A DNA stretch of 62,077 nt from the IMG/VR virus record IMGVR_UViG_3300029319_000038, positions 1-62,077 of that record; one strand, 5' to 3'. The first letter of the stretch is position 1. Each line of letters begins with the position of its first letter. The position numbers and the translations under genes were made by a program. The notes under the pieces were generated by a model that did no database searches, was not told the origin of the DNA, and worked only from the letters and a program-made list of their open reading frames with translations. The DNA is from a virus. Below are positions 23,724 to 60,608 of the stretch, in pieces.

Positions 23724-24839
23724 ATGGCTAGAAAACAAGCAAAGAAACTTGGCAGGTTAAATCTTGCTGAGATGAGAAATTTAATTAATAAAAAAGTGGG
23801 CATGGAAGTTGCTCATGATCTTTCCAATGACAACCCAACAGAAGTCAAAGAATGGATCTCTACTGGGTCAAGGTGGCTTGATTCTGTTATTTGTCGTGGC
23901 AGGCTGGCTGGTATCCCAGTTGGTAAGATTGTGGAGATTGCTGGTCTTGAAGGATCTGGTAAGTCTTATATGGCAGCGCAGGTTGCTGCGAATGCTCAAA
24001 AGATGGGCATTGATGTTATTTATTTTGATTCAGAGTCTGCTATTGACCCTGAGTTTTTGGCTCGTGCTGGTTGTGACTTGAATACATTGTTGTATGTACA
24101 AGCACAGTCTGTTGAGTTTGTTTTGGAGACTATTGAGGAGTTACTAGGTTCTAATGAGAACCGTATGCTTTTCATCTGGGATAGTCTTGCCTTAACACCA
24201 TCTATCAGTGACGTTGAGGGTGACTTTAATCCTCAGTCTTCTATGGCTGTCAAGCCACGTATTCTTGCGAAGGGTATGTCAAAACTAACTGTACCTATTG
24301 CTAACTCACAGTCTACATTCTTGGTTCTTAATCAGTTAAAGACTAATATCACTAGTAATGTAGCAGAGGCTATGACAACTCCATATGTGACACCAGGTGG
24401 TAAGGCAATGCATTATGCTTACTCGCTACGCATTTGGCTTACAAAGCGTAAAGCAAAGGCTGCTTTCATTATGGATGACAATGGTTTCCGTGTTGGCTCC
24501 GAGGTGAAGGTTACACTAAAGAAAAGCCGTTTTGGAACAGAGGGACGACAATGTACGTTTAAAATCCTATGGGGTGGTGACGTTGGCATCCAAGACGAAG
24601 AGAGTTGGTTTGAGGCTGTAAAAAGCTCAGATAGTATCAAACAAGCTGGCGCATGGTATAATCTACTTTATGAAGATGGCACATCAGAAAAGTTCCAAGC
24701 CTCAAAGTGGAAAGAGAAACTACAAAGTGACAAGTTCCGCGCTAGAATTTTGCAGATCATGGATGACGAAATTATCATGCGCTTTGAGAAAAAAGAAGGC
24801 AAAGCTGGCGATTTTTATGACATTGACCCAGGTGAGTAA
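23724..24839 (+). CDS. uvsX: UvsX/RecA-like recombinase
   Basis: Forms ATP-dependent filaments on single-stranded DNA for strand exchange and recombination-dependent replication. The 371-residue protein has Walker A GLEGSGKS at 74-81, a RecA-like FDSESAIDPEFL segment after it, a Walker B LFIWDSLAL, and the LNQLK plus TPGGKAMHYAYSLRI region of the RecA core. The N-terminal 45 residues are phage-specific. AGGAGA lies 8 bases upstream. It works with the gp32-like protein (20193) and the helicase (26241). No UvsY is recognised in the window. Confidence 0.88.
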   Translation: MARKQAKKLGRLNLAEMRNLINKKVGMEVAHDLSNDNPTEVKEWISTGSRWLDSVICRGRLAGIPVGKIVEIAGLEGSGKSYMAAQVAANAQKMGIDVIYFDSESAIDPEFLARAGCDLNTLLYVQAQSVEFVLETIEELLGSNENRMLFIWDSLALTPSISDVEGDFNPQSSMAVKPRILAKGMSKLTVPIANSQSTFLVLNQLKTNITSNVAEAMTTPYVTPGGKAMHYAYSLRIWLTKRKAKAAFIMDDNGFRVGSEVKVTLKKSRFGTEGRQCTFKILWGGDVGIQDEESWFEAVKSSDSIKQAGAWYNLLYEDGTSEKFQASKWKEKLQSDKFRARILQIMDDEIIMRFEKKEGKAGDFYDIDPGE

Positions 24840-33040: not shown

Positions 33041-36000
33041 ATGGAAAGAATGAAAAGTAGTGTTCCTTTTGTGGGCTTGCACGCACATAGCGTCGCAGGC
33101 TCTGTTTTTGATGGGTTTGGATACCCACAAGATCATATGGACTTCGCATATGAAAATGGCATGAGTGCCTTAGCTTTAACTGATCACGGCAACATGAATG
33201 GTTTGTCATATCAGATTCTTCATGCAAAGAAGATGAAAGCTAGTGGCAAAGAGTTCAAGCCTATCTTTGGTGTCGAGGCATATTTTGTCCCATCCGTTGA
33301 GGAATGGAAGCAAGAGTATGAGAAGATTAAACAAGATAAAAAAGAAGCAAGAAAGCAAATTCAAGATACAGACAAGGTAGAGGCTGAGGACGAGAACGCC
33401 ACAAAGCAAAAGTCTAAAAGCAAGATTAATTCATATAGGCATCTTGTTTTGATTGCCATGAATCAGACTGGCTTAAACAATATCTTCAAGCTGGTGTCAG
33501 ATTCACATCAAGGTGACAACTTTTATCGCAAACCCCGTATCGACTACAAGCTTCTCAAAAAATATGGCGATGGCATTATTGCGTCCTCTGCGTGTCTTGG
33601 CGGTGTATATGCTAAAGACTATTGGAATAACCGCGATGCAGGCAGAGAAGCTGTTCTGGAGGCTATGAGAGAAACAACACGCCGGATGCAAGATTGCCTG
33701 GGCGATCGTTGGTATGGAGAGCTACAATGGAACAATGTGCCTGAGCAGCATGAGCTAAACCAGTATGTTATTGAAATGCATAATGAGTTTGGCATTGAGT
33801 TGATCTCTACTGCTGACAGTCACTATCCTAATCCACAGGCTTGGAAAGATCGAGAGCTTTATAAGCGTCTGGGCTGGCTTGGATCAAAGAAGCCAGAGTA
33901 TGCCAACAACGAGCTGCCTGTTGACGTTGACGAGCTTGGCATGGAATTATATCCTAAAAACGGCGATCAAATGTGGGAGTCTTACAAAAAATATTCTGAG
34001 GAGTGTCAATCAGTTTATAATGATGATTTGATTTTGGATTCAATTACCAAGACTCACTGGATTGCCCACGAGCGTGTTGAGGACTTTATGCCGGATGACA
34101 CTGTTCGTCTGCCTGGCTTTGTTGTCCCTGACGGCGCAGATGCAGCAGAGACTCTCATAAAAGAATCGATCGCAGGTCTGCGCAAGTTTAATCTTCATGA
34201 GGACAAAGAATATATTGATAGGCTTAAGCATGAGTTGACAGTGATTAACGAAAGGGGCTTTGGTAAGTATTTCCTTACAATGAAAGCAATTAGCGACACT
34301 GCCAATCGACATATGCTGTCTGGTCCCGGCAGAGGTTCCGCTGCTGGCTCTTTGGTGGCTTATGTGTTAGGCATCACTCAGGTTGATCCTATCAAGTACG
34401 GTCTACTGTTCAGTCGTTTCTTAAGGTCAGATGCTACTGACTATCCAGACATTGACTATGATGTTAGTGACGCATTTGGTCTCAAGGAGATTCTGGCTAA
34501 AGAGTGGGGCGACACAACAGTTGTGCCTATCTCTAATTTTAACACGCTGCAGCTGCGCTCTCTTATCAAAGACATCAGCAAGCTGTATGAGATTCCTTTT
34601 TCAGAGGTTAACTCTGTTACAAGCAAGATGGTTAAAGAGGCAACTCCAAAAGCAAAGGCTGACCATGGAATTAAAGCTGGTATGTACGTGCCAACCTTTG
34701 AAGAGGTTATGAAATATTCAGAGTCTTTGATTACTTTCATGAAGAAGTATCCTGATGTTAAAACACATGTTGAGGCTCTCGTTGGTCAAGTGCGCTCCAC
34801 AAGTCGACATGCTGGCGGTGTTGTGATTGGCGAAGACTTAGATAAACATATGCCCTTGATTTGTTCAGGTGGTGTGGTGCAGACGCCATGGTCTGAGGGT
34901 CAGAACGTCAGGCACCTAGAGCCTCTAGGCTTCATCAAGTTTGATCTGCTTGGTTTATCAACACTAGAAATGATTGAGGGTGCCATCAGGCACATTCTAA
35001 AGCGCAAGCAAGGCATCGATAATCCAACATTCGATCAAGTAAAAGATTATTATGACACCTTTCTGCATCCTGACAGGATCGATCTAAGCGATCAAAAGGT
35101 TTATAAAAATATCTTTCACAAGGGTAAGTTTGCCGGTGTCTTCCAGTTTACAAACGCTGGTGCACAAAGGTTCTGTCAGAATGCAAAGCCAAACAATATT
35201 ATTGATATCTCTGCTATTACATCTATCTACCGTCCAGGTCCGCTATCGGCAAAAGTTGACAGAGATTATGTTAAAGCAAAGAAGAAAAGAAAGTTGACTT
35301 TTGTTAACGAAATTGTTGAAGAGATTACAAAAGAGACAGCTGGCTTCCTTATCTTTCAAGAGCAAATCGCTTTGCTAGCTCACAAGCTGGGCAAAGATAT
35401 TACACTAGAGGAAGGTAACAAGCTGAGAAAACTTTTAACTAAGAAAGGTACAGGCAAAGGCTTTGAAGAGAAAGACAGTATTAAAGATAGATTTATTGAA
35501 GGGTGCATTGAAAAGAAGATGGATCAAGTTACTGCTGAGAAAATGTGGCAGAACTTTGAATACTTCTCTGGATATGGCTTCAATAAGTCACACGCTATCG
35601 CCTACTCTATCCTTTCGTATCAGTGCGCATGGCTCTTAAATTATCATCCTGAGTGTTGGATGGCTGCTTTCTTAGACAAAGAGCCAGAGGCAAGAAAATC
35701 AGCAGCAATCTCACTAGCACAAAAGTATGGATTTTTTATTGAGACCATCAATATTAACACTTCAACAAGAGAGTGGGAGATTGGCGATGATGATCAAACT
35801 TTAATTCAGCCGTTTAGTTCAATCAAGGGCTTGGGTGATAAAGCTATTGATCAGATAATTCAAAACAGACCATTTGAAAAAATAGAGGATATCTTATTTA
35901 ACAAAGATATTGTTCAAGCGAAGCTCAACAAGAGAGCTTTAGATGTTCTGTGCAGGTCTGGTGCTCTAGATACAATCGTCGATGAACGCTTTACTGGCTG

Positions 36001-36466
36001 CAAGCATTTTTGGATGTCTTGCATACAAGATAGACCAAAGACTGAGAAGAAGCTGGTTGAAAATATTGAGCTTTATTCTCCTGAAGAAGATTTTACAAGA
36101 GAGGAAAAGATTGGCTATGTATCTGATTTGACAGGTCAATTTCCTTTTGATCTTGTAATGACAAAGGAGATAAGAGATGCGATAAGCAATCATCGTGTAC
36201 CTCCGGTGGCTGAGTGGGACAAAGATTTAAAAGTTGCATGGTTTATCCCGCGAGATGTAATTGTTAAGAAAACAAAAAACGGTAAACTTTATTGGATCTT
36301 AAAAGTAATTGATGAAACTTCCACAATGACGTCAATCAAATGTTGGGGTGTCTCGGAAACTGACCAGATTTATATTAATAAGCCTTACTTGGCAAAATTA
36401 GACTATAGCGAGGACTGGGGCTTCAGCACACGATCTGTTCGTCATACATTTAGGATGCTAGGATAA
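33041..36466 (+). CDS. dnaE: DNA polymerase III alpha subunit (DnaE-like, family C)
   Basis: Probable replicative polymerase. The 1141-residue protein begins with a PHP domain (LHAHS at about 9, LTDHGN near 46, GVEAYF near 77) whose metal-ligand residues look present. GRGSAAGSLVAY near 428 and PDIDYD at 469-474 give the catalytic aspartates D470 and D472; KFDLLGLSTL near 633 holds the third. A helix-hairpin-helix region follows near 930 and an OB-fold-like C terminus from about 1040. Length matches bacterial DnaE. It has its own promoter and an AGAGG site. T4-like phages normally use a family B polymerase, which is not seen here. Confidence 0.92.
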   Translation: MERMKSSVPFVGLHAHSVAGSVFDGFGYPQDHMDFAYENGMSALALTDHGNMNGLSYQILHAKKMKASGKEFKPIFGVEAYFVPSVEEWKQEYEKIKQDKKEARKQIQDTDKVEAEDENATKQKSKSKINSYRHLVLIAMNQTGLNNIFKLVSDSHQGDNFYRKPRIDYKLLKKYGDGIIASSACLGGVYAKDYWNNRDAGREAVLEAMRETTRRMQDCLGDRWYGELQWNNVPEQHELNQYVIEMHNEFGIELISTADSHYPNPQAWKDRELYKRLGWLGSKKPEYANNELPVDVDELGMELYPKNGDQMWESYKKYSEECQSVYNDDLILDSITKTHWIAHERVEDFMPDDTVRLPGFVVPDGADAAETLIKESIAGLRKFNLHEDKEYIDRLKHELTVINERGFGKYFLTMKAISDTANRHMLSGPGRGSAAGSLVAYVLGITQVDPIKYGLLFSRFLRSDATDYPDIDYDVSDAFGLKEILAKEWGDTTVVPISNFNTLQLRSLIKDISKLYEIPFSEVNSVTSKMVKEATPKAKADHGIKAGMYVPTFEEVMKYSESLITFMKKYPDVKTHVEALVGQVRSTSRHAGGVVIGEDLDKHMPLICSGGVVQTPWSEGQNVRHLEPLGFIKFDLLGLSTLEMIEGAIRHILKRKQGIDNPTFDQVKDYYDTFLHPDRIDLSDQKVYKNIFHKGKFAGVFQFTNAGAQRFCQNAKPNNIIDISAITSIYRPGPLSAKVDRDYVKAKKKRKLTFVNEIVEEITKETAGFLIFQEQIALLAHKLGKDITLEEGNKLRKLLTKKGTGKGFEEKDSIKDRFIEGCIEKKMDQVTAEKMWQNFEYFSGYGFNKSHAIAYSILSYQCAWLLNYHPECWMAAFLDKEPEARKSAAISLAQKYGFFIETININTSTREWEIGDDDQTLIQPFSSIKGLGDKAIDQIIQNRPFEKIEDILFNKDIVQAKLNKRALDVLCRSGALDTIVDERFTGCKHFWMSCIQDRPKTEKKLVENIELYSPEEDFTREEKIGYVSDLTGQFPFDLVMTKEIRDAISNHRVPPVAEWDKDLKVAWFIPRDVIVKKTKNGKLYWILKVIDETSTMTSIKCWGVSETDQIYINKPYLAKLDYSEDWGFSTRSVRHTFRMLG

Positions 36467-37750: not shown

Positions 37751-38767
37751 ATGAAACAAACTTATTCTTTTGATGATGTTCTACTAGTCCCACAATACAG
37801 CAGTATTGAATCAAGATCTGAAGTCAGTATGGACTGCAACTTAGGTGAATTTAATTTTAGTTTACCAGTGATCTCTAGTCCGATGGATACTGTTACAGAG
37901 GCGGGCATGGTCAAAGCCATGTCTAAAGTCGGGGGGCTTGGTATCATACACAGATATAACAGCATGGAAGAGCAAGCTAGAATTGTTGCTCATGCTCGAA
38001 TGTCTGGCTGTGAAAATATTGGTGCAGCGATAGGTGTTACCGGTGAATACTTAGATAGAGCCATGTGCCTTGTTGAGGCTGGCGCAAATATTCTCTGTGT
38101 CGATGTAGCGCACGGACACCATGCGATGATGCGCTCTGCTTTGGAGCAGTTAAAAAACACGCTGGGCGATAAGACTCATATCATGGCAGGCAATGTTGCA
38201 ACGCTCGAAGCGTTCGAAGCTTTAGCTGGTTGGGGCGCTGATTCAATCAGGGTAGGTATTGGTGGAGGTTCTATTTGCTCAACAAGAATTGTTACTGGTC
38301 ACGGTGTACCAACTTTTCAGAGTATATTAGAGTGCGCGCAAACTAGTTATGACACTAAAATCATTGCCGATGGTGGAATTAAAACCAGTGGTGATATTGT
38401 AAAAGCTCTGGCTGCAGGCGCTGATTTTGTAATGATTGGGTCCATGCTGTCTGGCACCGAAGAAACTCCTGGCGAGGCTCTAGTGAATGCAAAAGGCGAA
38501 AAATACAAAGAATACAGAGGCATGGCTTCAAAAAAAGCGCAAAGAGAGTGGCGTGGCAAAAGCTCCACTCCAGAGGGCGTATCAGCTATGGTGCCTTTTA
38601 AAGGACCCGTTAATGATATCCTTCAAGATATCTCTGGTGGTATTCGCTCTGGCTTGTCTTACACAGGGGTACGCTCTTTACAAGAGTTACAAAATAAAAG
38701 ACGCTTCATTCTACAATCCAGTGCGGCTCAACTTGAAAGTAACACCCATATTCTCTGGAGAAGATAG
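37751..38767 (+). CDS. guaB: IMP dehydrogenase / GMP reductase family enzyme
   Basis: A TIM-barrel enzyme acting at the IMP/GMP node of purine metabolism. The 338-residue protein starts [14 protein letters not shown], has [10 protein letters not shown] near 42, and the catalytic Cys loop GGGSICSTR with C176, then ADGGIK near 210, GSMLSGTEE near 235 and [11 protein letters not shown] near 280. CBS domains are absent, as in GMP reductases and some short IMPDHs. Loop and flap residues favour IMPDH slightly, but GMP reductase cannot be excluded. It may raise guanine nucleotide supply and complements the PurA-type gene at 53793. Confidence 0.85.
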
Positions 38768-40097: not shown

Positions 40098-40772
40098 ATG
40101 AACTTAAGCAGCAAAGAAAAAAAAAGTGATGTAGATAATAAAGAAAAAAACAATAACGACAAAGAAGCTGCTGAGTTAGCTTCTCTAATCAACTTGGCTC
40201 TTGAAAAGCCAGAGATGAGGTCGGTCGCTCTTTACGGTGACGTTAATGAAGAGAAAGCCTCTGAGCTAGTTTATGGTCTTTTAGCGTTAAGCAGCAGTGC
40301 AGTGCGAAATGTTTTAAGCGACCCAGAGGACGTTGAGTCTGACATAATACAGGTTGTCGATCCAATTGATCTCTATGTTTCAAGCTACGGAGGTCAAGCT
40401 ACAGAAATGTTCTCTCTGTACGATATTATCCGCAAAGTCAGGGAAGAGACGCCAATTAGAACTTATGGGCTAGGTAAAGTTATGTCCGCTGGTGTGTTGG
40501 TGCTGGCATCTGGAACAAGAGGCGAAAGAAGAGTTGGCAAGCATTGCAGGGTCATGATTCATGGAGTTGTCTCAGGACAACAAGGATATCTTGCGGACAT
40601 TGAAAATGAGTTTGCTGAAACAAAGTTTACACAAAAAATGTATATTAAAGCTTTAGCTGAAGAAACAAACATGACAGAGAAATATATTAAAAATTTAATG
40701 GATAAAAAAACTAATGTCTACATTGATGCAGAGGAAGCAGTTAATTTAGGAATTGCTGACATTGTTTTCTAA
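40098..40772 (+). CDS. clpP: ClpP-like serine protease
   Basis: A 224-residue protein with the ClpP/crotonase-type catalytic triad: Ser130 in GKVMSAGVL, His155 in RVMIHG and Asp202 in MDKKTNVYIDAEEA. The N-terminal 25 residues are a charged Lys/Asp/Asn leader. In phages such enzymes act either as head maturation proteases or as part of a Clp system; no ClpX/ClpA partner is seen here. Directly following the acidic scaffold-like gene favours prohead processing; neighbouring chaperonin genes favour a quality-control role. Confidence 0.83.
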   Translation: MNLSSKEKKSDVDNKEKNNNDKEAAELASLINLALEKPEMRSVALYGDVNEEKASELVYGLLALSSSAVRNVLSDPEDVESDIIQVVDPIDLYVSSYGGQATEMFSLYDIIRKVREETPIRTYGLGKVMSAGVLVLASGTRGERRVGKHCRVMIHGVVSGQQGYLADIENEFAETKFTQKMYIKALAEETNMTEKYIKNLMDKKTNVYIDAEEAVNLGIADIVF

Positions 40773-42275: not shown

Positions 42276-43847
42276 GTGAGTAAACAATACACTGACAACG
42301 AAGAGTTGCAAAAAAAGATTTTGTCTGGAGTTAATAAGCTAGCTGATAACGTAGCAGCGACTTTAGGTCCAAAAGGTAGAAATGTTCTGTTAGCTGCCAG
42401 CGATGGCAATCCCATGGTTACAAAAGATGGCGTAACTGTTGCAAAGTTTGTTCATCTTGAGGATCCGTTTGAAAATGCAGCTGCACAATTATTAAAGCAA
42501 GTTGCATCTGAAACTGCTAATCTGGCAGGCGATGGCACAACAACTTCAACGGTGCTTGCCAGAGAGATCTATGCAAAAAGCCAGAAGTATCTGGCAGCAG
42601 GATCATCGCCTATAGAGCTTAAACGAGGCATGGACAAGGCTGTTGACGCCGTTGTAAACAAAATAAAAAACATGTCTAAACCTGTCGAGTCAATGGAAGA
42701 TATTGAGCATGTGGCTACAATTTCAGCTAACAATGATGAATCTATTGGCAAACTAATATCAAAAGCTGCTGAGCAAGCTGGTCATGATGGCGCTATCACT
42801 GTTGAAGAAGCAAAATCATTTGACACTAGCCTAGAGGTTATTGAAGGCTTCAGGTTTGCTTCAGGATATTTTGCACAGGCTTTTGTCAACAACGAACGAA
42901 GAAACGCTGTTGAATATGATGACGCACTAGTGTTGGTCACAGACCACAAGATAGACTCAGTGCAGGAACTTTTACCTGTACTTGAGCTGGTAGCCAGGGA
43001 GTCAAAGCCTTTTGTTCTGGTTGCTGAGCAAGTTGAAGGACAGGCACTAGCAGCTTTAATTATGAATACTGTAAGAGGCTCAATGAAAGTTTCAGCAGTG
43101 AAAGCGCCAGAGTATGGGCAAGAGCGTAGAAACATCATGTCTGACTTGTGCTTGTCTGTTGGTGCTAACTTCATTACTCGTGAGTCAGGCAAGAAGCTGT
43201 CTGAGGTTGTGTTGTCTGATTTAGGTGTGTGCAAGAAAGTAGAGATCCTAAAAAACATGACAACTTTCGTTGGTGGTTCGGCTGACTGGGAAAAGATTGA
43301 AAAGAAGATTGAATCAATTAAAGCCGAGATCAAGCAAACAGAAGACATGGGCGAATGTCGCAAGTTACAGCACAGGATCACACGTCTTACAAGTGGAGTC
43401 GCTGTTATCAAAGTTGGCGCGCCAACTGAAGTAGAGATGATTGAGAAGAAGCATAGAATCGAAGATGCTTTAGAGGCAGTCAAATCTGCACAAGCCGAAG
43501 GCACAGTTGCTGGAGGTGGCTCTGCCCTTGTAAGTTGCATGGACTTTGAGATTGATGCTGAGAATGAAGATCAGACACTAGGTGCAAATATCATTCGCTC
43601 ATCTCTCTCAGCGCCAATCAAGCAAATGTGCAAAAATGCTAATGAAAGCGCTGACTTAATTATTGAAAGAATAATTAATGCAGATGAAAATCATGGCTGG
43701 GATTTTAAGAACAACTGCTTGGTCAATATGTACGAAAGCGGTATTATTGATCCAGCCAAAGTTACAAGGGTTGCTTTGCAGAACGCTACGTCCGTCTCTT
43801 CTATTCTTGTAACTACAAGTAACGCTATTGTGGAGGTTAAAAAATGA
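42276..43847 (+). CDS. groEL: Phage GroEL chaperonin
   Basis: ATP-dependent folding chamber. The 523-residue protein keeps the GroEL signatures: TLGPKGRNVLL near 29-39, TKDGVTVAK near 49, AGDGTTTSTVLA near 82-93 with the ATPase Asp, and TEVEMIEKKHRIEDAL near 385-400 with the second. The Gly-Gly-Met tail of bacterial GroEL is absent (the protein ends VEVKK), and the apical region is diverged. GTG start with AGAGAGG. A GroES-like gene lies at 29774. It probably folds large virion proteins such as the capsid, as known for some jumbo-phage chaperonins. Confidence 0.93.
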   Translation: MSKQYTDNEELQKKILSGVNKLADNVAATLGPKGRNVLLAASDGNPMVTKDGVTVAKFVHLEDPFENAAAQLLKQVASETANLAGDGTTTSTVLAREIYAKSQKYLAAGSSPIELKRGMDKAVDAVVNKIKNMSKPVESMEDIEHVATISANNDESIGKLISKAAEQAGHDGAITVEEAKSFDTSLEVIEGFRFASGYFAQAFVNNERRNAVEYDDALVLVTDHKIDSVQELLPVLELVARESKPFVLVAEQVEGQALAALIMNTVRGSMKVSAVKAPEYGQERRNIMSDLCLSVGANFITRESGKKLSEVVLSDLGVCKKVEILKNMTTFVGGSADWEKIEKKIESIKAEIKQTEDMGECRKLQHRITRLTSGVAVIKVGAPTEVEMIEKKHRIEDALEAVKSAQAEGTVAGGGSALVSCMDFEIDAENEDQTLGANIIRSSLSAPIKQMCKNANESADLIIERIINADENHGWDFKNNCLVNMYESGIIDPAKVTRVALQNATSVSSILVTTSNAIVEVKK

Positions 43848-44360: not shown

Positions 44361-44651
44361 GTGATTAAATTAAACGAAATTTACAAAACAGCAAAAGGGT
44401 ATAATCCAAAAAGAGAGAGAGTCGATGTGACCTACGGTTTGAGAGAATTATATGTAAATCCCAGCCACATTGTCCTGGCAAGAGAAAATGAAGAACTTAG
44501 ACATGCCAATGCCGAGAGTTCTATAATTGATGATTTAAGTCCTGAAGCTAGATTTAGCGAGGTTATAATTTCTTCTCAAGGGCAGTCATCCAGAATTGTT
44601 GATGTGGTTGCCTCTCCATCTCAAATCGCACATTTATGCAGGGGTGAATAA
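44361..44651 (+). CDS. Hypothetical protein
   Basis: A 96-residue protein from a GTG start with AAAGGAG 8 bases upstream. It opens LNEIYKTAKGYNPKRERVDVTYGLRELYVNPSHIV and has no recognised domain. Its stop overlaps the glutaredoxin start by one base. Confidence 0.6.
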   Translation: MIKLNEIYKTAKGYNPKRERVDVTYGLRELYVNPSHIVLARENEELRHANAESSIIDDLSPEARFSEVIISSQGQSSRIVDVVASPSQIAHLCRGE

Positions 44652-44893
44652 TGTCTTACATAGTATTCTTAAAAAACAACTGTCCTTATTGTGTGGAGAC
44701 CATTAATCTTTTAAATAGCAAGGGATTGAATTACCAAACGATCTCTCTTGACCAGGCTCCCGCTAATGTATTAGCCGACATAAAAAGTGCTTATGAATGG
44801 AGCACCGTACCAATTGTGTTTTCAAAACAAGGAAAAGAAACAAATCTTATCGGTGGCTATACAGATTTAAAAAAAGAGTTAGCAAGTGAGTAA
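44651..44893 (+). CDS. Glutaredoxin
   Basis: An 80-residue thioredoxin-fold reductase with the redox site CPYC at residues 11-14, a TVP cis-proline segment near 55-57 and a GGYTDL segment near 68-73, all standard for glutaredoxins. Phage glutaredoxins such as T4 NrdC deliver electrons to ribonucleotide reductase; the partner here would be the class II enzyme at 27623. It overlaps the next gene by 8 bases. Confidence 0.85.
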   Translation: MSYIVFLKNNCPYCVETINLLNSKGLNYQTISLDQAPANVLADIKSAYEWSTVPIVFSKQGKETNLIGGYTDLKKELASE

Positions 44894-45697: not shown

Positions 45698-46132
45698 ATG
45701 ACTACTTTAACTACTTACAAGCCTGGACTTTTAGGGCGCAGTGTTTTTGATGATATTTTTGATTCAATGTTGGATCTTCCAGCGCTTATGGACCGCACTA
45801 CACAAGGATATCCTGTCGCTGATATTTATAAAGCCTCAGATGGTTCAACTGTGATGGAGTTCGCTCTCGCCGGCTTCAAAAGAGATAATTTACACGTAGA
45901 GATTATCCCAGAAAAAAGAGAGATCCATGTTAGCGCAGACTCCCATGGAGATGAAGAGAGGGATAATTTTAAATCGCGACGTATAGCGCGCCGAGCCTTC
46001 CATAAGACTTTTGTTAACTATGATGGTGACCTAGATTTATCAAAGGCAGAAGCTAAATATAACGATGGTCTATTGCGGATTAATTTACCCCTAAAGCCTG
46101 AGGCTGACAGTATTAAGCTGAGTATTGGGTAA
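45698..46132 (+). CDS. hsp20: Small heat-shock protein Hsp20
   Basis: ATP-independent holdase of the alpha-crystallin family. The 144-residue protein has the crystallin domain from about 38 to 135: VADIYKASDG, VMEFALAGFKRDNLHVEI, HVSADS, and the closing strand with DGLLRINLPL (the A-x-x-x-DGxL motif). AGGAGA lies 8 bases upstream. Similar genes occur in cyanophages. With GroEL and GroES-like genes it forms a folding set. A long hairpin follows. Confidence 0.9.
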   Translation: MTTLTTYKPGLLGRSVFDDIFDSMLDLPALMDRTTQGYPVADIYKASDGSTVMEFALAGFKRDNLHVEIIPEKREIHVSADSHGDEERDNFKSRRIARRAFHKTFVNYDGDLDLSKAEAKYNDGLLRINLPLKPEADSIKLSIG

Positions 46133-46141
46133 CAAATAAAT

Positions 46142-46189
46142 CTCTTTGACCTTCCGAAGGTATATTTATTTTAGGAGGGTCAAAGAGTG
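46142..46189 (+). promoter_or_regulatory. Hairpin that masks start of deformylase gene
   Basis: CTCTTTGACC at 46142-46151 is a perfect 10-base-pair complement of GGTCAAAGAG at 46178-46187. The 3' arm covers the end of the AGGAGG ribosome site (46173-46178) and the first base of the GTG start at 46187. Folding would hinder translation of the deformylase, as in RNA thermometers or regulatory hairpins. There is no T run, so it is not an intrinsic terminator. Confidence 0.6.
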
Positions 46190-46636
46190 TTTCAGTACGT
46201 TACTGATATGCAGCAACTTAATAAACCTTGCAAACCCTGTAAAACTTTGCACGATGGTCTACAATTGGGTCAAAGATTACTTCATGTGCTTGAGCGCTCT
46301 AACGATGGAGTTGGCTTGGCAGCAAATCAAATTGGCATCGATTCAAGAGTCTGTGTTGTAAAAGTCACAAAGCCAATCATATTGATCAATCCAGAGATAA
46401 TCGGCAAGTTTGGTAAAAGTTTCTTTCAAGAAGGTTGTCTTTCATTTAAAGGTGACTATGTTCTAACAGAGAGATGGACAGACATTGTAGTAAAAGCAGA
46501 CAACCACAAAAACAACTTGTTCTTTTCATTTAAGAACAACGCATTAGAGTGTGTTTGTGTGCAGCATGAGATTGACCATTTAAATGGTATTACAATGTTT
46601 GACAGAGCCGTAGACAAGGAGAAATTAAATGGCTAG
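46187..46636 (+). CDS. def: Peptide deformylase
   Basis: Removes the formyl group from N-terminal methionine of new proteins. The 149-residue metalloenzyme has GVGLAANQIG at 41-50, EGCLSF at 82-87 with the Cys metal ligand, and HEIDH at 127-131 with the two His ligands. GTG start with AGGAGG partly held in a hairpin. Cyanophages carry related genes. It overlaps the next gene by 8 bases. Confidence 0.9.
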   Translation: MFQYVTDMQQLNKPCKPCKTLHDGLQLGQRLLHVLERSNDGVGLAANQIGIDSRVCVVKVTKPIILINPEIIGKFGKSFFQEGCLSFKGDYVLTERWTDIVVKADNHKNNLFFSFKNNALECVCVQHEIDHLNGITMFDRAVDKEKLNG

Positions 46637-52182: not shown

Positions 52183-52873
52183 GCAAAATATAATAAACGA
52201 AGGCGGATTTTCTCGCATCCGTCAGATTATGCTTGGTCAAGTACCAACGATTGATCAAGTTGGCATTTTAACAGCAGAGAATCCTGATGGGCTACCGGCT
52301 ACATCTCAAGAAAATAAACAGTCAATGCGCCGGCTCAAGGGTATTCTTGCGAGCATGAAAGCCGGCTACACTGATATTGATGGTTCTTTTGGCAGTCCAG
52401 AAAAATCCGTTTTTATTATGAACATCTCTCGCGATGATGTTACGCGACTTGGGCAAGAGTTTGGTCAAGAAGCTGTCATCTGGGGTCAAAAGATGCGGGA
52501 TGATGATGACAATCCTTATTTTCGCTTCGAGTATATTGAGGGTCAAGATACAATCCAAACAAGAGACGTAAGTTTAGGCGGGCAAGAGATAGAGGATAGA
52601 CCAGATTTTTATTCTCAGAAGGGTAGTAGAAAATTTGTTATACCCTTCTTCGATGATGACCACGGTGGGTCGAAACCGGCAGAGGGAGGCAGAAGAATAT
52701 CTTTTGCTGAAAGTGAACTCCCTGAAGATGGCTCTGCAGCAAGGCTGGTTGAGTCGATTAAAAAACGAAATAGTTTTTTATTTCAACAAGATAGAACAGA
52801 AAAATCTAAATGGCATCACAGGAACATAATGAAAACGGAGATGGAAAAATTAAGCAGGCTGACAGAAAAATAA
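52148..52873 (+). CDS. DUF3293-like hypothetical protein
   Basis: A 241-residue protein with good AAGGAG sites upstream. After an N-terminal NWRNYKQNI helix it has ILTAENPDG near 40, GSFGSPEKSVFI near 80 and LGQEFGQEAVIWG near 100, a pattern like the DUF3293 family. The C terminus is charged and disordered. It overlaps the next gene by 64 bases. Confidence 0.6.
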   Translation: MDTLIKNWRNYKQNIINEGGFSRIRQIMLGQVPTIDQVGILTAENPDGLPATSQENKQSMRRLKGILASMKAGYTDIDGSFGSPEKSVFIMNISRDDVTRLGQEFGQEAVIWGQKMRDDDDNPYFRFEYIEGQDTIQTRDVSLGGQEIEDRPDFYSQKGSRKFVIPFFDDDHGGSKPAEGGRRISFAESELPEDGSAARLVESIKKRNSFLFQQDRTEKSKWHHRNIMKTEMEKLSRLTEK

Positions 52874-53055
52874 AGGTCGGCGACTTGGTTAAACCCAAGA
52901 CAATCATGAATGACGATAACTTTGTTAATTTTGACGACATTGGTATCGTCGTGCACAAGAAAGGTAAGGTGTGCATCGTCAACTTCCCGTCTGCAAAACA
53001 AACTTTAAGTTTTTTAGAGTCGACCCTAATTTTGGTTAGCTCACAAAAAGAATAA
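52810..53055 (+). CDS. Small K-x-G-D-L-V (SH3-like) protein
   Basis: An 81-residue protein. A hydrophilic 20-residue leader precedes KIKVGDLVKPKT, the same opening as the array at 56876-58081, then GIVVHKKGKVCIVNF forms likely barrel strands. Start has a weak binding site and overlaps the previous gene by 64 bases, so the true start could be later. Confidence 0.55.
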   Translation: MASQEHNENGDGKIKQADRKIKVGDLVKPKTIMNDDNFVNFDDIGIVVHKKGKVCIVNFPSAKQTLSFLESTLILVSSQKE

Positions 53056-53569: not shown

Positions 53570-53803
53570 ATGATGAGTTATTATCTCAATGTTGGCGATC
53601 TTTTAATAACAGAGGGTCGCGTCGGAGTGATCACTAAAATCAGAGTGAAGACAATACAGTATTACACATGCACGAATGGTCCCGGCGCATACTTTGATGA
53701 AAACAAAGAGAATGTTTACCGCTACATAGACAAGGGCGAGTGTATTCATCATCCTGGCAAAACAAAATATCGCAAACGAAGGAGCAAAAAATATGATTGT
53801 TGA
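53570..53803 (+). CDS. Small V-G-D-L-type protein upstream of purA
   Basis: A 77-residue protein. LNVGDLLITEGRVGVITKI at the N terminus follows the K-x-G-D-L-V plan of the small beta-barrel family in this genome; the C terminus is basic (KYRKRRSKK). The start is close to the -10 box, so the leader is very short. It overlaps purA by 11 bases. Confidence 0.52.
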   Translation: MMSYYLNVGDLLITEGRVGVITKIRVKTIQYYTCTNGPGAYFDENKENVYRYIDKGECIHHPGKTKYRKRRSKKYDC

Positions 53804-54806
53804 TGTAGTTGTAGGACTCCAACACGGGGATGAGGCTAAGGGAAAAATTACCCACCAGTTGTGTAAAAATTATGATTATGATTACGTACTGAGGTTTAAT
53901 GGTGGGGGCAATGCAGGTCACACGATCTATCACCATGGTAAAAAGTTTATTACTCACTATATCCCCGCAGGTGTGTTTCATGGAATCAAAAGTATTATTG
54001 GCAATGGCTGCGTTATCAATCCAAAGCACCTCATGGAGGAGATGAGAGATTTAGCATATGCGGGCATTGATACAAAAAATCTTGTACGTATCGCCAGCAA
54101 TTGTCATGTGATCACCGATGAACATCTTGAAGAGGATGGACGCGACACAAGAATTGGCACAACAAAGCGAGGCACTGGACCGGCGTACAGAGACAAGTAT
54201 AGTCGCGACGGTCTTCGCGCAAAAGATGTGCCAGAATTAGAAGATTATGTCATCGACCTCTATGAGACCTTGCACAAAGACAGAGACACAAAGATTCTAT
54301 GCGAAGGTGCGCAAGGTTTTGAGTTGGATATTGATTGGGGTGATTATCCTTACGTTACATCCAGCCATACTACAGTTGCCTCTGCCCTGCTGAATGGCAT
54401 TCCTCCACAAGCCATTCGCAATGTATGGGGCGTTGCCAAGGTCTATGACACTTATGTTGGCACAAAGAATTTTGAACCAGAAGGCGTTGCGTTCCCAAGG
54501 CTTAGGGATATCGGTGAAGAGTATGGTGCAACCACCGGACGTCCACGGCAATGCAATTGGTTGAACCTAGACAGCTTAATCAAGTCGCTGGCTATCAATG
54601 GCGTGACTCAAGTTGTGTTTAACAAAACTGATGTATTACAAGAACTTGGAGAGTTCAAGCTTATCTATAACAACAAAGTTCAAGAATTTTCTTCACTGAA
54701 GCAAATGTGTGACTATATTGAAGTCAGAATCCCATCGCCTGTGCGAGCAAGAATCAAACGTATTCTTTACTCTGGCGATAAACACGGAATGGATATAGCA
54801 GCATGA
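53793..54806 (+). CDS. purA: Adenylosuccinate synthetase, PurA/PurZ family, short form
   Basis: Joins aspartate to a 6-oxopurine nucleotide with GTP. The 337-residue protein is the short form seen in archaea and phages; bacterial PurA has about 430. GDEAKGK at 12-18 keeps catalytic Asp13, GNAGHT at 39-44 keeps the second catalytic His (H43), then GTTKRGTGPAYRDK, EGAQGFELDID, YPYVTSSHTT, and GATTGRPRQ give the IMP and aspartate loops. The phage PurZ enzymes that make 2-aminoadenine are reported to have Ser in place of this Asp, so a PurA-like AMP route is favoured, but a PurZ0-like activity is not excluded. Likely partner: the IMPDH/GMPR at 37751. Confidence 0.86.
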   Translation: MIVDVVVGLQHGDEAKGKITHQLCKNYDYDYVLRFNGGGNAGHTIYHHGKKFITHYIPAGVFHGIKSIIGNGCVINPKHLMEEMRDLAYAGIDTKNLVRIASNCHVITDEHLEEDGRDTRIGTTKRGTGPAYRDKYSRDGLRAKDVPELEDYVIDLYETLHKDRDTKILCEGAQGFELDIDWGDYPYVTSSHTTVASALLNGIPPQAIRNVWGVAKVYDTYVGTKNFEPEGVAFPRLRDIGEEYGATTGRPRQCNWLNLDSLIKSLAINGVTQVVFNKTDVLQELGEFKLIYNNKVQEFSSLKQMCDYIEVRIPSPVRARIKRILYSGDKHGMDIAA

Positions 54807-54990: not shown

Positions 54991-55803
54991 ATGGCTTGGA
55001 AATACGATAAGAACGGTAAGGCAAAGCGATCTGTGCGTTGTGGTTTTTGTGGCGAGATTGGTCACAACCGTGCGTCCTGCCCTAAGTATAAAGAAAAGAA
55101 GGCAAAATCTCTAGAATATCACGAGCAAATGGCTCAAGACGAAACAATCCAGCAGCACATGCGGGACTATCATGCAGAGCAAGCTCGCATATGCGCTCGT
55201 ATCATTGCACGTGACAGCAAGACAAGGAAAGGCAAAGAGCGTCGCTGTGGCTTTTGCGGTGACTTTGGGCATACTCGACGCACGTGTCAAAAGCGCAAGG
55301 ACATGGTTAAAGATGAGACTGACAAGGCAATTAGGTTTCGTAAGCACCTTCGAGATCAATTCATCCAACGTGGCATTGGACCCGGTGCTTTAGTCGAAGT
55401 CGATGCATCCAACGCAGTGGCTTGGGGTAGAGAGGATGAGTTCAGATCTGTGCTGGCTATTGTCACAGATGTTTCTCTTCGATCCGTCAACTCGCGTCAT
55501 TCCCCAAACCCAAATCAATATTGGTTTGATCAAACACCTATCTGCTTAGAGGTTTCGTACATTAAGCCTGTGCCAATGCGCTGGTCAGATGATTCAAAGA
55601 ATGACTGGATCCGAATCAGTCATGACATGTGCAACTTTGACAGCCTAGATCTAGAGGGAGTTCAATTCTCTTCGCAGTATGGCAACTGGCTGACCAATGT
55701 CGTTAACCCAGTTGAGGTGTCAGAAGACATTCTTCCTGAACAAGATATTGATTTTGATCATGTTTCTGATTTCATTTTGGATGCAATTGTTGATCCAAAA
55801 TAA
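54991..55803 (+). CDS. Double CCHC zinc-knuckle protein
   Basis: A 270-residue protein with two retroviral-type zinc knuckles, C17-x2-C20-x4-H25-x4-C30 and C86-x2-C89-x4-H94-x4-C99, separated by a charged helix. The C-terminal 150 residues are a mixed fold with GALVEVDASNAVAW at its start, again beta-barrel-like. Such knuckles normally bind single-stranded RNA or DNA. It has a strong promoter and ribosome site. Likely an early nucleic-acid-binding factor; target unknown. Confidence 0.75.
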   Translation: MAWKYDKNGKAKRSVRCGFCGEIGHNRASCPKYKEKKAKSLEYHEQMAQDETIQQHMRDYHAEQARICARIIARDSKTRKGKERRCGFCGDFGHTRRTCQKRKDMVKDETDKAIRFRKHLRDQFIQRGIGPGALVEVDASNAVAWGREDEFRSVLAIVTDVSLRSVNSRHSPNPNQYWFDQTPICLEVSYIKPVPMRWSDDSKNDWIRISHDMCNFDSLDLEGVQFSSQYGNWLTNVVNPVEVSEDILPEQDIDFDHVSDFILDAIVDPK

Positions 55804-56875: not shown

Positions 56876-57064
56876 GTGAAGATAGGAGACCTAGTATCGC
56901 TCAGACCTGAATATCAAACAGAAGATGAGTTTTACTATGGCTTCGGCGTTATTACATTAATAGAGGACTATGGTCCATCAGGTGTCTGGATGTGTGTGCA
57001 GTGGAACAGAGAAGACATCTGGCATCGTCCAGGCGATCTTAAAATAGAAAGCGAGGCAAAATGA
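56876..57064 (+). CDS. K-x-G-D-L-V array protein 1
   Basis: A 62-residue protein from GTG, opening MKIGDLVSLRPEYQ with GFGVITLIED strands and WMCVQWNRED, an SH3-like small barrel plan. No Shine-Dalgarno site; TATATTTATTAT abuts the start. First member of seven tandem related genes. Overlaps the next by 4 bases (ATGA). Confidence 0.6.
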   Translation: MKIGDLVSLRPEYQTEDEFYYGFGVITLIEDYGPSGVWMCVQWNREDIWHRPGDLKIESEAK

Positions 57065-57243
57065 AGAAAGGCGACAAGTTGATAGTCACCAGAAAAAATG
57101 ACATCACACAAAGCTACATCCCATGGGGCAGCACTTGTGAATATCTAGCATCGTTTGATAGGTATGTCTGTGTGTTATATCAGCACAAAGAATACTTAAT
57201 AAATAAGGATTTACTGGAAGAGGCTGCACATGAAAACGGGTGA
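57061..57243 (+). CDS. K-x-G-D-L-V array protein 2
   Basis: A 60-residue protein (MKKGDKLIVTRKND) with the same plan as its neighbours. It ends in HENG, whose codons form the start of the next gene: a 14-base overlap. Confidence 0.6.
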   Translation: MKKGDKLIVTRKNDITQSYIPWGSTCEYLASFDRYVCVLYQHKEYLINKDLLEEAAHENG

Positions 57244-57385
57244 TGAGGTTGAGCATCTAGAGAAGCCTGAATGGGGCACTGGCAAAGTGATTCGTTTTTA
57301 CGCTTATCAAAGCACTGTGCTTGTTGATTTCAGCAAGCGGGATAATCTAACCTACTGTGATTACACATGTTTGGAGAAAAAATGA
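57230..57385 (+). CDS. K-x-G-D-L-V array protein 3
   Basis: A 51-residue protein (MKTGDEVEHLEKPEWGTGKVIRF plan) starting 14 bases inside the previous gene. The segment WGTGKVIRFYAYQSTVLVDF fits barrel strands and resembles DUF-type small RNA polymerase or nucleic-acid barrels. It overlaps the next by 4 bases. Confidence 0.58.
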   Translation: MKTGDEVEHLEKPEWGTGKVIRFYAYQSTVLVDFSKRDNLTYCDYTCLEKK

Positions 57386-57555
57386 GCCCTGGAGATTTAG
57401 TAAAAAATACTCATGCACTGAGTCGCTTTCTCAACCAGCTTGGGATTATTATCGAAACTGAGGACACTAGTTATGGGACGTGCAACATGCGCGTCATGTA
57501 TCCTGATGGCACCACATTGTGGGACTCGCCTCGCTGGCTGGAGAAAGTTGAGTGA
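57382..57555 (+). CDS. K-x-G-D-L-V array protein 4
   Basis: A 57-residue protein (MSPGDLVKNTHAL). ATG 57382 has GGAGAAAAA before it and forms an ATGA overlap; the ATG at 57367 is less well placed. Barrel-like strands LGIIIET and MRVMYPDG with a terminal SPRWLEKVE. Confidence 0.6.
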   Translation: MSPGDLVKNTHALSRFLNQLGIIIETEDTSYGTCNMRVMYPDGTTLWDSPRWLEKVE

Positions 57556-57734
57556 AGATTGGCGATCTGGTAAAAACAACTGGTGAAAGCCTTAACATGG
57601 TTGGTATTATTGTTAAAATCGACCGCAGTTATTGGTCAGACCGTTGGCGGTATTGGGTTGAGATATCTGACCGAGTATCCGGTCCTTATCCATTCCTAGA
57701 CACTCAAATTGAGGTTATCAATGAAAGTAGGTGA
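57552..57734 (+). CDS. K-x-G-D-L-V array protein 5
   Basis: A 60-residue protein from GTG (GTGA overlap), opening MKIGDLVKTTGES and containing MVGIIVKIDRS and YWVEISD. It ends INESR, with a 14-base overlap into the next gene. Confidence 0.6.
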   Translation: MKIGDLVKTTGESLNMVGIIVKIDRSYWSDRWRYWVEISDRVSGPYPFLDTQIEVINESR

Positions 57735-57903
57735 TTTAGTTGCGCGCCGTATTAATTATGGCATAGATAAGGGCTCTGGCTTGATTATAGCAGCCAGGGA
57801 AGATATATCTGCCCGATACTACAAAATACATTGGTCTTTAGACCAAGAATTCACGCAATGGTACGAATCATGCGAATTGAGGTTGTTAAGTGAAAGTAGG
57901 TGA
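57721..57903 (+). CDS. K-x-G-D-L-V array protein 6
   Basis: A 60-residue protein (MKVGDLVARRINYG) that ends LSESR, like the previous member's INESR, with another 14-base overlap. GLIIAARED and YYKIHWSLD follow the barrel plan. Confidence 0.6.
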   Translation: MKVGDLVARRINYGIDKGSGLIIAAREDISARYYKIHWSLDQEFTQWYESCELRLLSESR

Positions 57904-58081
57904 TATTGTTATGCAAACTGAGCTGCCTGACTACCTTGGACTGATTACAGGCATGTCAGAGGTCACAGGTCGCGAAGGCTGGACAGTTAATTTTATGCAC
58001 GTTAGGTGGATTAATAAACTGTATGAAGTTGAGAAGATACCAGAATGGAGGCTTGAAGTTGTTAGCCCTGCTTTACTTTAA
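57890..58081 (+). CDS. K-x-G-D-L-V array protein 7
   Basis: A 63-residue protein from GTG (MKVGDIVMQTELPDY), containing YLGLITGMSEV and FMHVRWIN. Last of the tandem set; it is followed by a promoter region. Confidence 0.6.
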   Translation: MKVGDIVMQTELPDYLGLITGMSEVTGREGWTVNFMHVRWINKLYEVEKIPEWRLEVVSPALL

Positions 58082-58192: not shown

Positions 58193-58405
58193 ATGAACGA
58201 GACACGTCGTAAAATTACTGAACTTGCCCATGCCTTGTATTACCTAGCTGATGAGCTTGTTTCAGAACCAACAAAACAGAACGCTGACAAGATTACTGAT
58301 AAGGTTGAGAAAGCTCTTGACACTTACGCAGAGCCAACAAAGCAGGCGTCATTCTCATTTGACGATGATTTTTCTTATGATAAAGAAAGGTTCATGGCTA
58401 AGTGA
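58193..58405 (+). CDS. Small helical hypothetical protein
   Basis: A 70-residue protein with AAAGGGGA 6 bases upstream. Two helices followed by an acidic SFDDDFSYDKE tail. No family recognised. It overlaps the next gene by 4 bases. Confidence 0.58.
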   Translation: MNETRRKITELAHALYYLADELVSEPTKQNADKITDKVEKALDTYAEPTKQASFSFDDDFSYDKERFMAK

Positions 58406-58683
58406 ATCTGCGCGATGCCAAAAGGTTGCAGCCTGGAGCCATTGTTCGACGAGCGTGGAATCCAGATGGTAAAGCTCAAGGCATTGTGTTAGCTAAAGTT
58501 CACGTCAAAGAAGAGCATGTAGCACTTTTATTAGGCGGCAAGAAGAAAGAGCGCTGGGACGTAACAGTCCACTGGCTGCATGACCCTCCAGGGGTTTGGG
58601 ACACAAAATCTCTTTATTTCCGAAAGGATGTGCATGTGCAAACACACCAGAATTGGGAGATAATGGTGGTACAGCATGTCTGA
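58402..58683 (+). CDS. Small beta-barrel-like protein
   Basis: A 93-residue protein from GTG, with LQPGAIVRRAWNPDGKAQGIVLAKV (about 9-33), distantly like the K-x-G-D-L-V plan, then WDVTVHWLHDPPGVWD. Function unknown. Confidence 0.55.
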   Translation: MNLRDAKRLQPGAIVRRAWNPDGKAQGIVLAKVHVKEEHVALLLGGKKKERWDVTVHWLHDPPGVWDTKSLYFRKDVHVQTHQNWEIMVVQHV

Positions 58684-58805: not shown

Positions 58806-58835
58806 TTAATGCGAACCCAGGTAACGGAGGACACC

Positions 58836-59486
58836 ATGGGACGGTACCAAACTCAGAGCCGCAAGTCAAACCCTGAGCTTATTGAGAACATCGAGCGTGT
58901 TGCAGCGCGCGGCGTTAAGACTTTGACTGATTGGGAGCGCGGGTTCCTTGAGTCGCTCCTTGATGCTGCAAAAAAATGGGGACGCTTGACTGAGAGGCAG
59001 CAAGATGTTTTCAAGCGCATCGAGAAGAACAGCGACCCTGCTGCCATAACTGCCCGTAATAATTGGATTAGTAGCTACGATGATGCCAAGCGCAAAAAGG
59101 CAATCTTTGCTGCTGAGTATTACAAAGCCAACCCGCCCTACTACGGCGACGCCGCAGATAGAATCCTTAATGATTCCGAGTACATACTGCCAGAGAAGCT
59201 CTACCGCAAGATGGTTGAAAACAAGTATGTCACCCGCGCCTTCGAGAATGTTGAAGCACCAGCCCTCTACCCTGCTGGTTCGCTTGCAACTGTGCGAAAT
59301 AATAGCACAACTGCACAGTTTCGCCGCTTGTACCCTCTCCGAGATAAAAATGTTCTGGTTATTTCAATCGATGAACATACGCTGAACTCCACTAAGGGCT
59401 CGAAAAAATACACTGTTTTACCAGTAGGTGCAACAGAGACTATCAAAGTTGAAGAGCGCTTCCTAAAAAAATGTAAGAAAAGTTGA
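58836..59486 (+). CDS. Conserved hypothetical protein, possible DNA-binding N terminus
   Basis: A 216-residue basic protein. ATG 58836 is chosen because CGGAGGA lies 6 bases upstream. The N-terminal part has a helix-rich LTDWERGFLESLLDAAKKWGRLTERQ region (about 31-56) seen in other phage proteins, and a Lys-rich middle. The C-terminal half has alternating strands. Family not named. Next gene is MoxR behind its own promoter. Confidence 0.62.
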   Translation: MGRYQTQSRKSNPELIENIERVAARGVKTLTDWERGFLESLLDAAKKWGRLTERQQDVFKRIEKNSDPAAITARNNWISSYDDAKRKKAIFAAEYYKANPPYYGDAADRILNDSEYILPEKLYRKMVENKYVTRAFENVEAPALYPAGSLATVRNNSTTAQFRRLYPLRDKNVLVISIDEHTLNSTKGSKKYTVLPVGATETIKVEERFLKKCKKS

Positions 59487-59555: not shown

Positions 59556-60608
59556 ATGGCAGTTGATTTTCAAACATTCGTTTCCATCGCTCCCCACGTC
59601 TTGCGAGTTCGCAAGCCACTGATGCTTCGTGGTCGCCACGGCATTGGCAAGTCTGAGCTTGTCTATCAGATTGCTGAGGACATGGGGCTACCTGTCGTCG
59701 AGCGACGGGCTTCTCAAATGACTGAAGGCGACCTAGTGGGTCTGCCCAACACGGATGGCGCGGTCACTTCTTTCTGCGCTCCTGACTGGCTGGCGGATGC
59801 CTGCTCACGTCCAGTGCTGCTCTTCCTCGATGAGGTCGACCGCGCCATCCCAGAGGTTCGCCAAGGCATCTTCGAGTTGACTGACTCGCGCAAGATCTTT
59901 GGCAACTACCTTCACTCAGACACTGTTGTGGTCGCTGCTGTTAACGGTGGTGAGCATGGCTCGCAATACCAAGTCGGCGAGATGGATCCAGCAGAGCTTG
60001 ACCGCTGGACTGTCTTCGATGTCGAGCCGTCCGCTGAGGACTGGCTGACCTGGGCTAAGACCAACGTCGTCGATGTTGTCTGGGATTTTATTAATCAAAA
60101 TCGCTCGCACCTTGAGCATGGGCAAGACTTTGAGCCCAACAAAGTTTACCCTTCCCGTCGTTCTTGGAAGCGCCTTAATGATTGCTTGGTCTCAGCTTGC
60201 ATGGTTGAAGAGCACAACCCTGCTGTCTACCACTTGTCCTGTGGGTTCGTTGGCTTCGAGGCTGCTGTTGCTTTCAACGACTTCTTCAAGAATTACGAGC
60301 GACAGGTCACTGTTGAGATGATCCTCGACGAGGGTAAGATTGAAAAGACTAATGATTTCAGCTTGAACGACCACTGTGCTCTCATCGAGAAGATGGACGC
60401 AAGCGAAGTATTCAGCGCTGAGTTGACCGAGGCACAATGTGTCAACCTGGCAAACTACTTCGTCTCTCTGCCCTCCGAGGCAGTGATGAAGCTATGGCAA
60501 GCGCTCGGACGGGGGGACACCTCCAACGTGACAGCTTTCCACAAAACCAAGGCAGACAACGGTGAGACTGTCTCTGGTAAATTGGTTAAGATTCTCACCG
60601 GTAAATAA
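59556..60608 (+). CDS. MoxR-type AAA+ ATPase
   Basis: ATP-driven chaperone-like ATPase. The 350-residue protein has Walker A GRHGIGKS at 26-33 and Walker B LLFLDEVD at 88-95, then AAVNGG and a DPAELDRW sensor/arginine segment near 146-153. The C-terminal half is helical. Family members work with von Willebrand A proteins to activate or insert cofactors into other proteins; the next gene provides such a partner. G+C and codon use are richer than in the tail genes, compatible with different origin. AGG-containing site upstream. Confidence 0.82.
   Translation: MAVDFQTFVSIAPHVLRVRKPLMLRGRHGIGKSELVYQIAEDMGLPVVERRASQMTEGDLVGLPNTDGAVTSFCAPDWLADACSRPVLLFLDEVDRAIPEVRQGIFELTDSRKIFGNYLHSDTVVVAAVNGGEHGSQYQVGEMDPAELDRWTVFDVEPSAEDWLTWAKTNVVDVVWDFINQNRSHLEHGQDFEPNKVYPSRRSWKRLNDCLVSACMVEEHNPAVYHLSCGFVGFEAAVAFNDFFKNYERQVTVEMILDEGKIEKTNDFSLNDHCALIEKMDASEVFSAELTEAQCVNLANYFVSLPSEAVMKLWQALGRGDTSNVTAFHKTKADNGETVSGKLVKILTGK

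Follow-up and report, generated by a model that had tools for sequence, protein, structure and literature searches.

The mobile regulatory cassettes of T4-type phages (PeSLs), reportedly described by Arbiol et al. in 2010 and Comeau et al. in 2014 (both cited in PMC4503421), are said to consist of a promoter and terminator stem-loops and to be non-coding elements placed between genes. In cluster K mycobacteriophages, the SAS and ESAS sites are conserved sequences with a core resembling a Shine-Dalgarno (SD) sequence, and they directly precede the starts of many small genes from different families (PMC3203893). Conserved boundary sequences are a further case, in which recombination takes place at short shared gene-end sequences, once between adjacent genes with 18 common C-terminal residues (PMC3029335). 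In cyanophage S-PM2, the 'ORFanage' groups tiny uncharacterised genes whose synteny is seldom conserved, and intense shuffling has been ascribed to it (PMC4503421). The locus analysed here bears on how phages turn over many such genes and yet keep them expressed. It is an array of tiny genes joined by overlaps in which the same DNA ends one gene and starts the next, and the best explanation, held at a probability of about 0.8, is that these overlap-linked cassettes are exchanged by homologous recombination at the dual-coding junction.

The window array and its locus

The window was the whole 62-kb stretch (62,077 nt) of an IMG/VR virus record (IMGVR_UViG_3300029319_000038). A sequence-only reading had reported seven small open reading frames (ORFs) at positions 56876-58081, and the ORF check placed all seven there and found the array to be real, with the following members.

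56876..57064, plus strand: cassette 1, 62 aa, VKIGDLV.., GTG start, first in the array
57061..57243, plus strand: cassette 2, 60 aa, MKKGDK.., most diverged member, overlapping cassette 1 by 4 nt
57230..57385, plus strand: cassette 3, 51 aa, MKTGDEV.., DUF3553-like, overlapping cassette 2 by 14 nt
57382..57555, plus strand: cassette 4, 57 aa, MSPGDLV..WLEKVE, overlapping cassette 3 by 4 nt
57552..57734, plus strand: cassette 5, 60 aa, VKIGDLV..IEVINESR, overlapping cassette 4 by 4 nt
57721..57903, plus strand: cassette 6, 60 aa, MKVGDLV..LRLLSESR, overlapping cassette 5 by 14 nt
57890..58081, plus strand: cassette 7, 63 aa, VKVGDIV..LEVVSPALL, last in the array, overlapping cassette 6 by 14 nt

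The 14-nt overlap sequences quoted in that reading were identical to the window DNA, and its count of three overlaps of each size (4 nt and 14 nt) was correct; their supposed strict alternation was dropped, since the order is 4, 14, 4, 4, 14, 14 nt. The opening M-K-V-G-D-L-V ascribed to all members was too broad: past the start only G4-D5 is invariant, members 2-4 reading KKGDKL, KTGDEV and SPGDLV. Identity to the first member is 17-32%, and only M-x-x-G-D is strictly common. Three junctions have the 14-nt overlap.

57230..57243, plus strand: junction 2/3, diverged 14-nt overlap ATGAAAACGGGTGA
57711..57741, plus strand: junction 5/6, GAGG SD within the cassette 5 IEV codons, cassette 6 ATG and cassette 5 TGA; dual-coding, fits the consensus
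57879..57910, plus strand: junction 6/7, same design as junction 5/6, with GAGG at 57879-57882, GTG start at 57890 and TGA stop at 57901-57903

The SD pairing energy was -6.8 kcal/mol at junction 5/6, and SD-like pairing was -5.8 or stronger at all six internal starts; the SD scan found none at the cassette 1 start. The LEV codons of the terminal cassette 7 itself are CTT GAA GTT, which are not SD-like. The window array is a diverged one, with a good fit to the consensus in only two of its six junctions and a poor fit of members 2 and 3 to the family profile.

The array locus is fixed, adjoining four conserved genes.

54991..55803, plus strand: zinc-knuckle protein, left anchor (Pfam zf-C2H2_10, zf-CCHC_6; 52 matches in related loci)
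58402..58683, plus strand: small conserved gene (93 aa) just past the array, right anchor (39-54% identical relatives at the same place)
58809..59486, plus strand: conserved 225-aa protein, right anchor (46 matches; order kept in relatives)
59556..60608, plus strand: AAA+ ATPase (MoxR-like), right anchor (Pfam AAA_5)

In all 48 loci containing both, the AAA+ ATPase and the array shared a strand. Across the lineage, this MoxR-like ATPase and its partner at 58809-59486 lie directly downstream of the arrays.

Distribution of arrays among viruses

IMG/VR was scanned with a pattern of three MK[IVM]GD starts at steps of 154-184 bp, with the frame left free, and 92 viral-contig stretches with such arrays were obtained. 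The same pattern gave four stretches in 257 Gb of prokaryote genomes; three were rejected as simple repeats without relation to the family, and the fourth, the sole genuine array among prokaryote contigs (L097; DJKT01000043.1, a Ca. Peribacter MAG), lies on a contig of 10.5 kb, possibly a phage contig binned into the Peribacter MAG. The viral loci held 1001 family starts, the longest arrays having 19 (L053), 16 (L011) and 14 (L022) genes, and among about 670 adjacent pairs the overlap was exactly 14 nt in 539 and 4 nt in 76. In 39 whole records, the motif was confined to one strand with 2 to 26 copies per record, and a reversed-pattern control in these records gave no matches. With the profile, 23 members were counted in G003, the nearest relative of the window.

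The T4-like major head protein family of the window was present in 27 of the 39 records, with 43-82% identity to the window's protein in the 20 records compared, so the arrays characterise a single uncultured lineage of T4-like myoviruses. The viruses carrying them infect bacteria and would seem to be marine. Among isolate phages, tblastn with the cassettes and blastn with the junctions gave no credible match, and no cassette is present in the isolates with the closest capsid proteins (Flavobacterium phage immuto, Microcystis phage Mel-JY01 and Rhodothermus phage RM378). A search of the open-licence literature returned no paper containing 'KVGDLV' and none describing such arrays.

Relatives and order of the cassettes

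A family profile was built from the cassettes of other phages without any window sequence and applied to the 997 stop-to-stop pieces of the window. The five top-ranked pieces were five of the seven members (E 1e-11 to 3e-7), and the window array is therefore not a chance arrangement. Members 2 and 3 were missed by the profile, yet they have relatives of 59% and 63% identity in the arrays of other phages. By cassette, relatives were found in L014/L032 for cassette 1 (50% identical; profile E 2.7e-7), in L134 for cassette 2 (the single relative, 59%), in L081 (63%), L123, L030, L135 and L170 for cassette 3, in L086, L004, L135 and L037 for cassette 4 (profile E 1.9e-7), in L118, L004 and L019 for cassette 5 (profile E 1.3e-11), in L123, L070 and L014 for cassette 6, and in L048 and L012 for cassette 7. 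Three further openings had been proposed as related; one is a relative lying outside the array, and those at 53570 (E 0.01) and 44160 (E 0.04) are weak.

52810..53055, plus strand: lone non-array relative with an N-terminal extension (..KIKVGDLVKPK..), profile E 9.1e-6

The sequence-only reading was borne out in regarding the members as a paralogous family of small proteins, with a barrel model at member 6, and related phages also have the genes in array form, with members that vary from phage to phage. Its account of expansion chiefly by tandem duplication did not hold, as all seven members match the cassettes of other phages better (35-75 bits) than one another (at most 21 bits); exchange rather than local duplication is thus taken as their main source. 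Relatives of the window cassettes also occur in other orders (L135, c6-c3-c4; L123, c4..c3-c6; L086, c1-c1..c1-c6..c4; L030, c3..c5). Growth of each array by local tandem duplication and divergence within its phage lineage would account for the start motif and, where modelled, the fold that members share, as well as for close copies of one type in some arrays (cluster 2 and cluster 135, twice each, in L053). It is nevertheless very unlikely, given that the best match lay in another contig for 791 of 834 array members over all arrays, including 7/7 window members (the outside set being larger than the own contig), and that cassette order is scrambled.

The scrambling is extensive. At 50% identity, 866 array members fell into 536 clusters, and one cassette type, present in 16 contigs, was preceded by 11 different neighbours and followed by 10. 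Between homologous cassettes, the downstream neighbour was kept in 0 of 74 comparisons, whereas around the capsid gene of these phages, which served as a control, neighbours were kept in 56-70% of comparisons (783/1402 at 30-50% identity and 790/1125 at 50-70%). Over all contigs, the neighbour was kept in 5 of 722 comparisons of cassettes with 50-85% identity. Cassettes 90-95% identical were found between phages with capsid proteins 60% identical.

Coding status and predicted fold of the proteins

Among related cassettes (137 pairs, interior codons only), the median dN/dS was 0.16 and 99% of values were below 1; spurious ORFs were rejected on this ground together with the presence of relatives across phages. 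The barrel plan attributed to all members was modelled well for member 6, for which AlphaFold2 gave a five-stranded barrel with a pLDDT of 90, and poorly for member 2 (pLDDT 72, pTM 0.46). Member 6 is accordingly a predicted SH3/Tudor-like barrel. Its PDB matches were Tudor, chromo and PWWP domains, with TM of about 0.6-0.76, and the PcrA/UvrD Tudor domain, all of them weak (best E 0.037). Compared with KOW, the family profile gave E values of 6e-6 for Spt5, where no single stretch passes alone, and 0.05 for NusG.

Cassette 3 passed the cut-off for DUF3553 (PF12073) with 21.8 bits against 20.3. The other window members missed it, and 121 of the 122 sampled members had no match at E<=0.01, cassette 3 being the exception. 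No single PHROG matched more than 2 of the 122 members, and likewise almost none were matched by Pfam. Matches in a viral structure database included many small proteins with near-consecutive accessions (A0A516M7..), which suggests arrays that have been annotated and left unnamed.

Dual-coding junction

Alignment of 483 distinct 14-nt junctions gave a consensus of about 35 nt, TTGGAGGTGATCAGTGAAAGTCGGTGATTTGGT. In the upstream frame it encodes L-E-V-I-S-E-S-R-stop, the last strand of the upstream protein, and from the GTG or ATG it encodes M/V-K-V-G-D-L-V, the first strand of the next protein. A GGAGG within the L-E-V codons, at -11 to -7, forms an SD at normal spacing, and SD pairing averaged -8.3 kcal/mol over the 14-nt junctions, compared with -2.9 for randomly placed ATG/GTG.

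Synonymous codons were strongly biased. The Glu codon of L-E-V was GAG in 348 cases and GAA in 5 at 14-nt junctions, compared with 816 GAG and 1047 GAA in cassette interiors (odds ratio 89, p 3e-101); in last array members, the counts at this codon were 73 and 32. The Gly codon of K-V-G-D was always GGT (485 of 485) where its T opens the upstream stop, and was GGT in 46 of 69 cases at 4-nt junctions. This bias to GAG and GGT shows that the junction is selected as DNA.

An upstream gene entering in frame +1 would stop at the TGA within (A/G)TGA, producing a 4-nt overlap, and one entering in frame +2 would stop at the TGA within GGTGA, producing a 14-nt overlap; entry in frame 0 alone would fuse the upstream gene to the cassette. 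Owing to the stops in frames +1 and +2, a cassette could sit behind almost any gene, with both terminating and initiating properly. The -ESR or -ENR ending is also seen in unrelated genes located before a cassette, which were labelled by sequence inspection as GIY-YIG-like (L085, L088, L135), MazG-like (L086, L088) and Smr-like (L079, L168); their proteins have such tails because of the 14-nt overlap with the cassette behind them. A conserved C-terminal end (-SESR) can mirror the DNA of the next gene instead of protein function. Other proteins with KVGDLV starts are a transmembrane peptide (L016) and some longer proteins (L163, L170, L049). The 4- and 14-nt overlaps and the buried SD make translational coupling between cassettes likely.

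Exchange at the junction

In 36 pairs of cassettes (>=85% identical, with different neighbours), identity was 0.85-0.95 inside and about 0.25 just past the junction. The ends of similarity blocks coincided with a junction in 75% of cases on the left and 84% on the right, compared with 8.6% and 10.7% expected for random positions. In L053, the member starting at 1308 on the minus strand has the tail ..LEVVSKLEVISESR with a doubled terminal motif, and to judge from its sequence this looks like the scar of an unequal exchange at a junction.

We propose that each cassette would be one tiny SH3/Tudor/KOW-like barrel gene, with a joint of about 35 nt that ends one gene and starts the next. Homologous recombination at the joints would exchange cassettes as well as insert and delete them, which is possible because near-identical sequence is present at every joint, and selection would retain the translatable products of exchange. 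As a result of such recombination, hardly any two phages would have the same set and order of cassettes, and the locus with its flanks would stay in place. The putative recombinase is of the RecA/UvsX type, and a RecA-type protein was encoded in 20 of the 20 records tested.

23724..24839, plus strand: RecA/UvsX-type recombinase, candidate for the exchange (PF00154, E 2.3e-38)

Two points weigh on the assignment of the junction as the crossover site. Translation (SD, start and stop) accounts for much of its conservation, so that its role as recombination homology is putative, and at about 30 nt with variable positions it is short for RecA-type pairing, which speaks against this reading. Blocks bounded by junctions in metagenomic contigs could also result from random exchange and subsequent selection for intact genes. 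The junction may accordingly be conserved for translation only and not be a crossover site, with illegitimate recombination followed by selection for exchanges between intact genes; the codon bias is indeed a strong translational constraint on it, and phage mosaicism at gene boundaries without a shared boundary sequence is well known (PMC3029335). This alternative is regarded as unlikely, though worth serious weight, since almost all exchange boundaries show identity on the scale of the junction, similarity blocks stop within the junction of about 35 nt or just beyond it, turnover far exceeds that of the capsid region in these phages, and unrelated upstream genes have acquired the -ESR tail.

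The single orientation, the one fixed locus and the very large cassette pool (536 clusters from 866 members) would also suit an integron-like, site-specific recombination in which a dedicated recombinase recognises the junction. This is highly improbable: a tyrosine integrase domain (PF00589) was absent from all 20 records searched, no dyad symmetry or inverted repeat was evident in the junction consensus on inspection, and the joint lies within coding sequence. Homologous exchange at the dual-coding junction thus remains the preferred reading. With odds slightly better than even, we also take the arrays to be a cassette system that works without an integrase and yields a phage-encoded combinatorial protein repertoire. 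On this reading, a single dual-coding overlap would act at once as gene end, ribosome-binding site (RBS), start and recombination site.

Other genes of the window

A PurZ/PurA-type adenylosuccinate synthetase (phrog_1211, '2-aminooxy adenylosuccinate synthetase') is encoded at 53793-54806 and an IMPDH/GMP reductase at 37751-38767; judging from these two genes, the phage may have DNA with a modified purine (2-aminoadenine). Two types of replicative polymerase were found, family A (weak, partial) at 18092-19270 and a bacterial Pol III alpha-like protein with a PHP domain at 33041-36466. Proteostasis genes are located at 40098-40772, 42276-43847, 45698-46132, 46187-46636 and 44651-44893, the set comprising ClpP and, from reading of the translations, GroEL-like, HSP20-like, peptide deformylase-like and glutaredoxin-like ORFs.

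Possible function and significance

The most likely role of the cassette proteins would be that of host-directed binders in takeover or anti-defence. Each might bind its own host factor, and changes of host would provide the selection. The variable array content, the purifying selection within cassette types and the small single-domain barrel fit such a role, the Tudor/KOW fold being one that binds proteins or nucleic acids (PcrA/UvrD Tudor, NusG/Spt5 KOW). The proposal is tentative, with chances somewhat short of even, as SH3-like barrels serve many functions and the structural matches were poor (best PDB E 0.037). It is compatible with cassette exchange and not exclusive of it.

Shuffled cassettes amount to a quickly changing toolkit of small proteins. 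The joint is itself coding: it sets the RBS and a stop in both alternative frames, and it marks the position of exchange. The system offers a ready test of homology-driven shuffling, its several hundred distinct small barrel proteins form a set for host-target screens, and the junction is a design for stackable overlapping genes.

Comparison with known systems

The arrays resemble integrons in having promoter-sparse single-gene cassettes in one orientation, a scrambled order and a huge pool, and differ from them in that the tyrosine integrase (IntI) was not found in 20 records and that the joint is dual-coding, its consensus showing on inspection no evident inverted repeat of the attC-hairpin kind. 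If the proposed exchange is true, a phage lineage would draw on a pool of hundreds of genes for one-domain barrels and assort them much in the way that integrons do with resistance genes.

With SAS the arrays share a conserved SD-containing sequence at the starts of small genes; however, SAS genes form no single fold family, and SAS sites are described upstream of starts and not as coding overlaps. The SAS consensus GGGATAGGAGCCC had no matches in the window with up to 2 mismatches allowed. Conserved boundary sequences have been reported as rare, whereas the present junctions are systematic, involving hundreds of genes in a defined array. The S-PM2 ORFanage is similar in its tiny unknown genes and intense shuffling; neither a family member nor the junction motif was found in S-PM2.

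Compared with PeSLs, promoter-like sites in the arrays were not above chance (4 versus 4.6), with none recurring at junctions, and terminator-like sites numbered 4 versus 1.7 by chance, with none at a junction. As in PeSLs, a short conserved repeat with a proposed role in homologous shuffling separates the small genes, most of them uncharacterised, of T4-like phages. The arrays are thus not members of the PeSL class but work like PeSLs, in that gene shuffling is bounded by a repeated sequence, and unlike PeSLs they have this repeat inside the coding sequence of both neighbours, where it carries the SD, the start and the stop.
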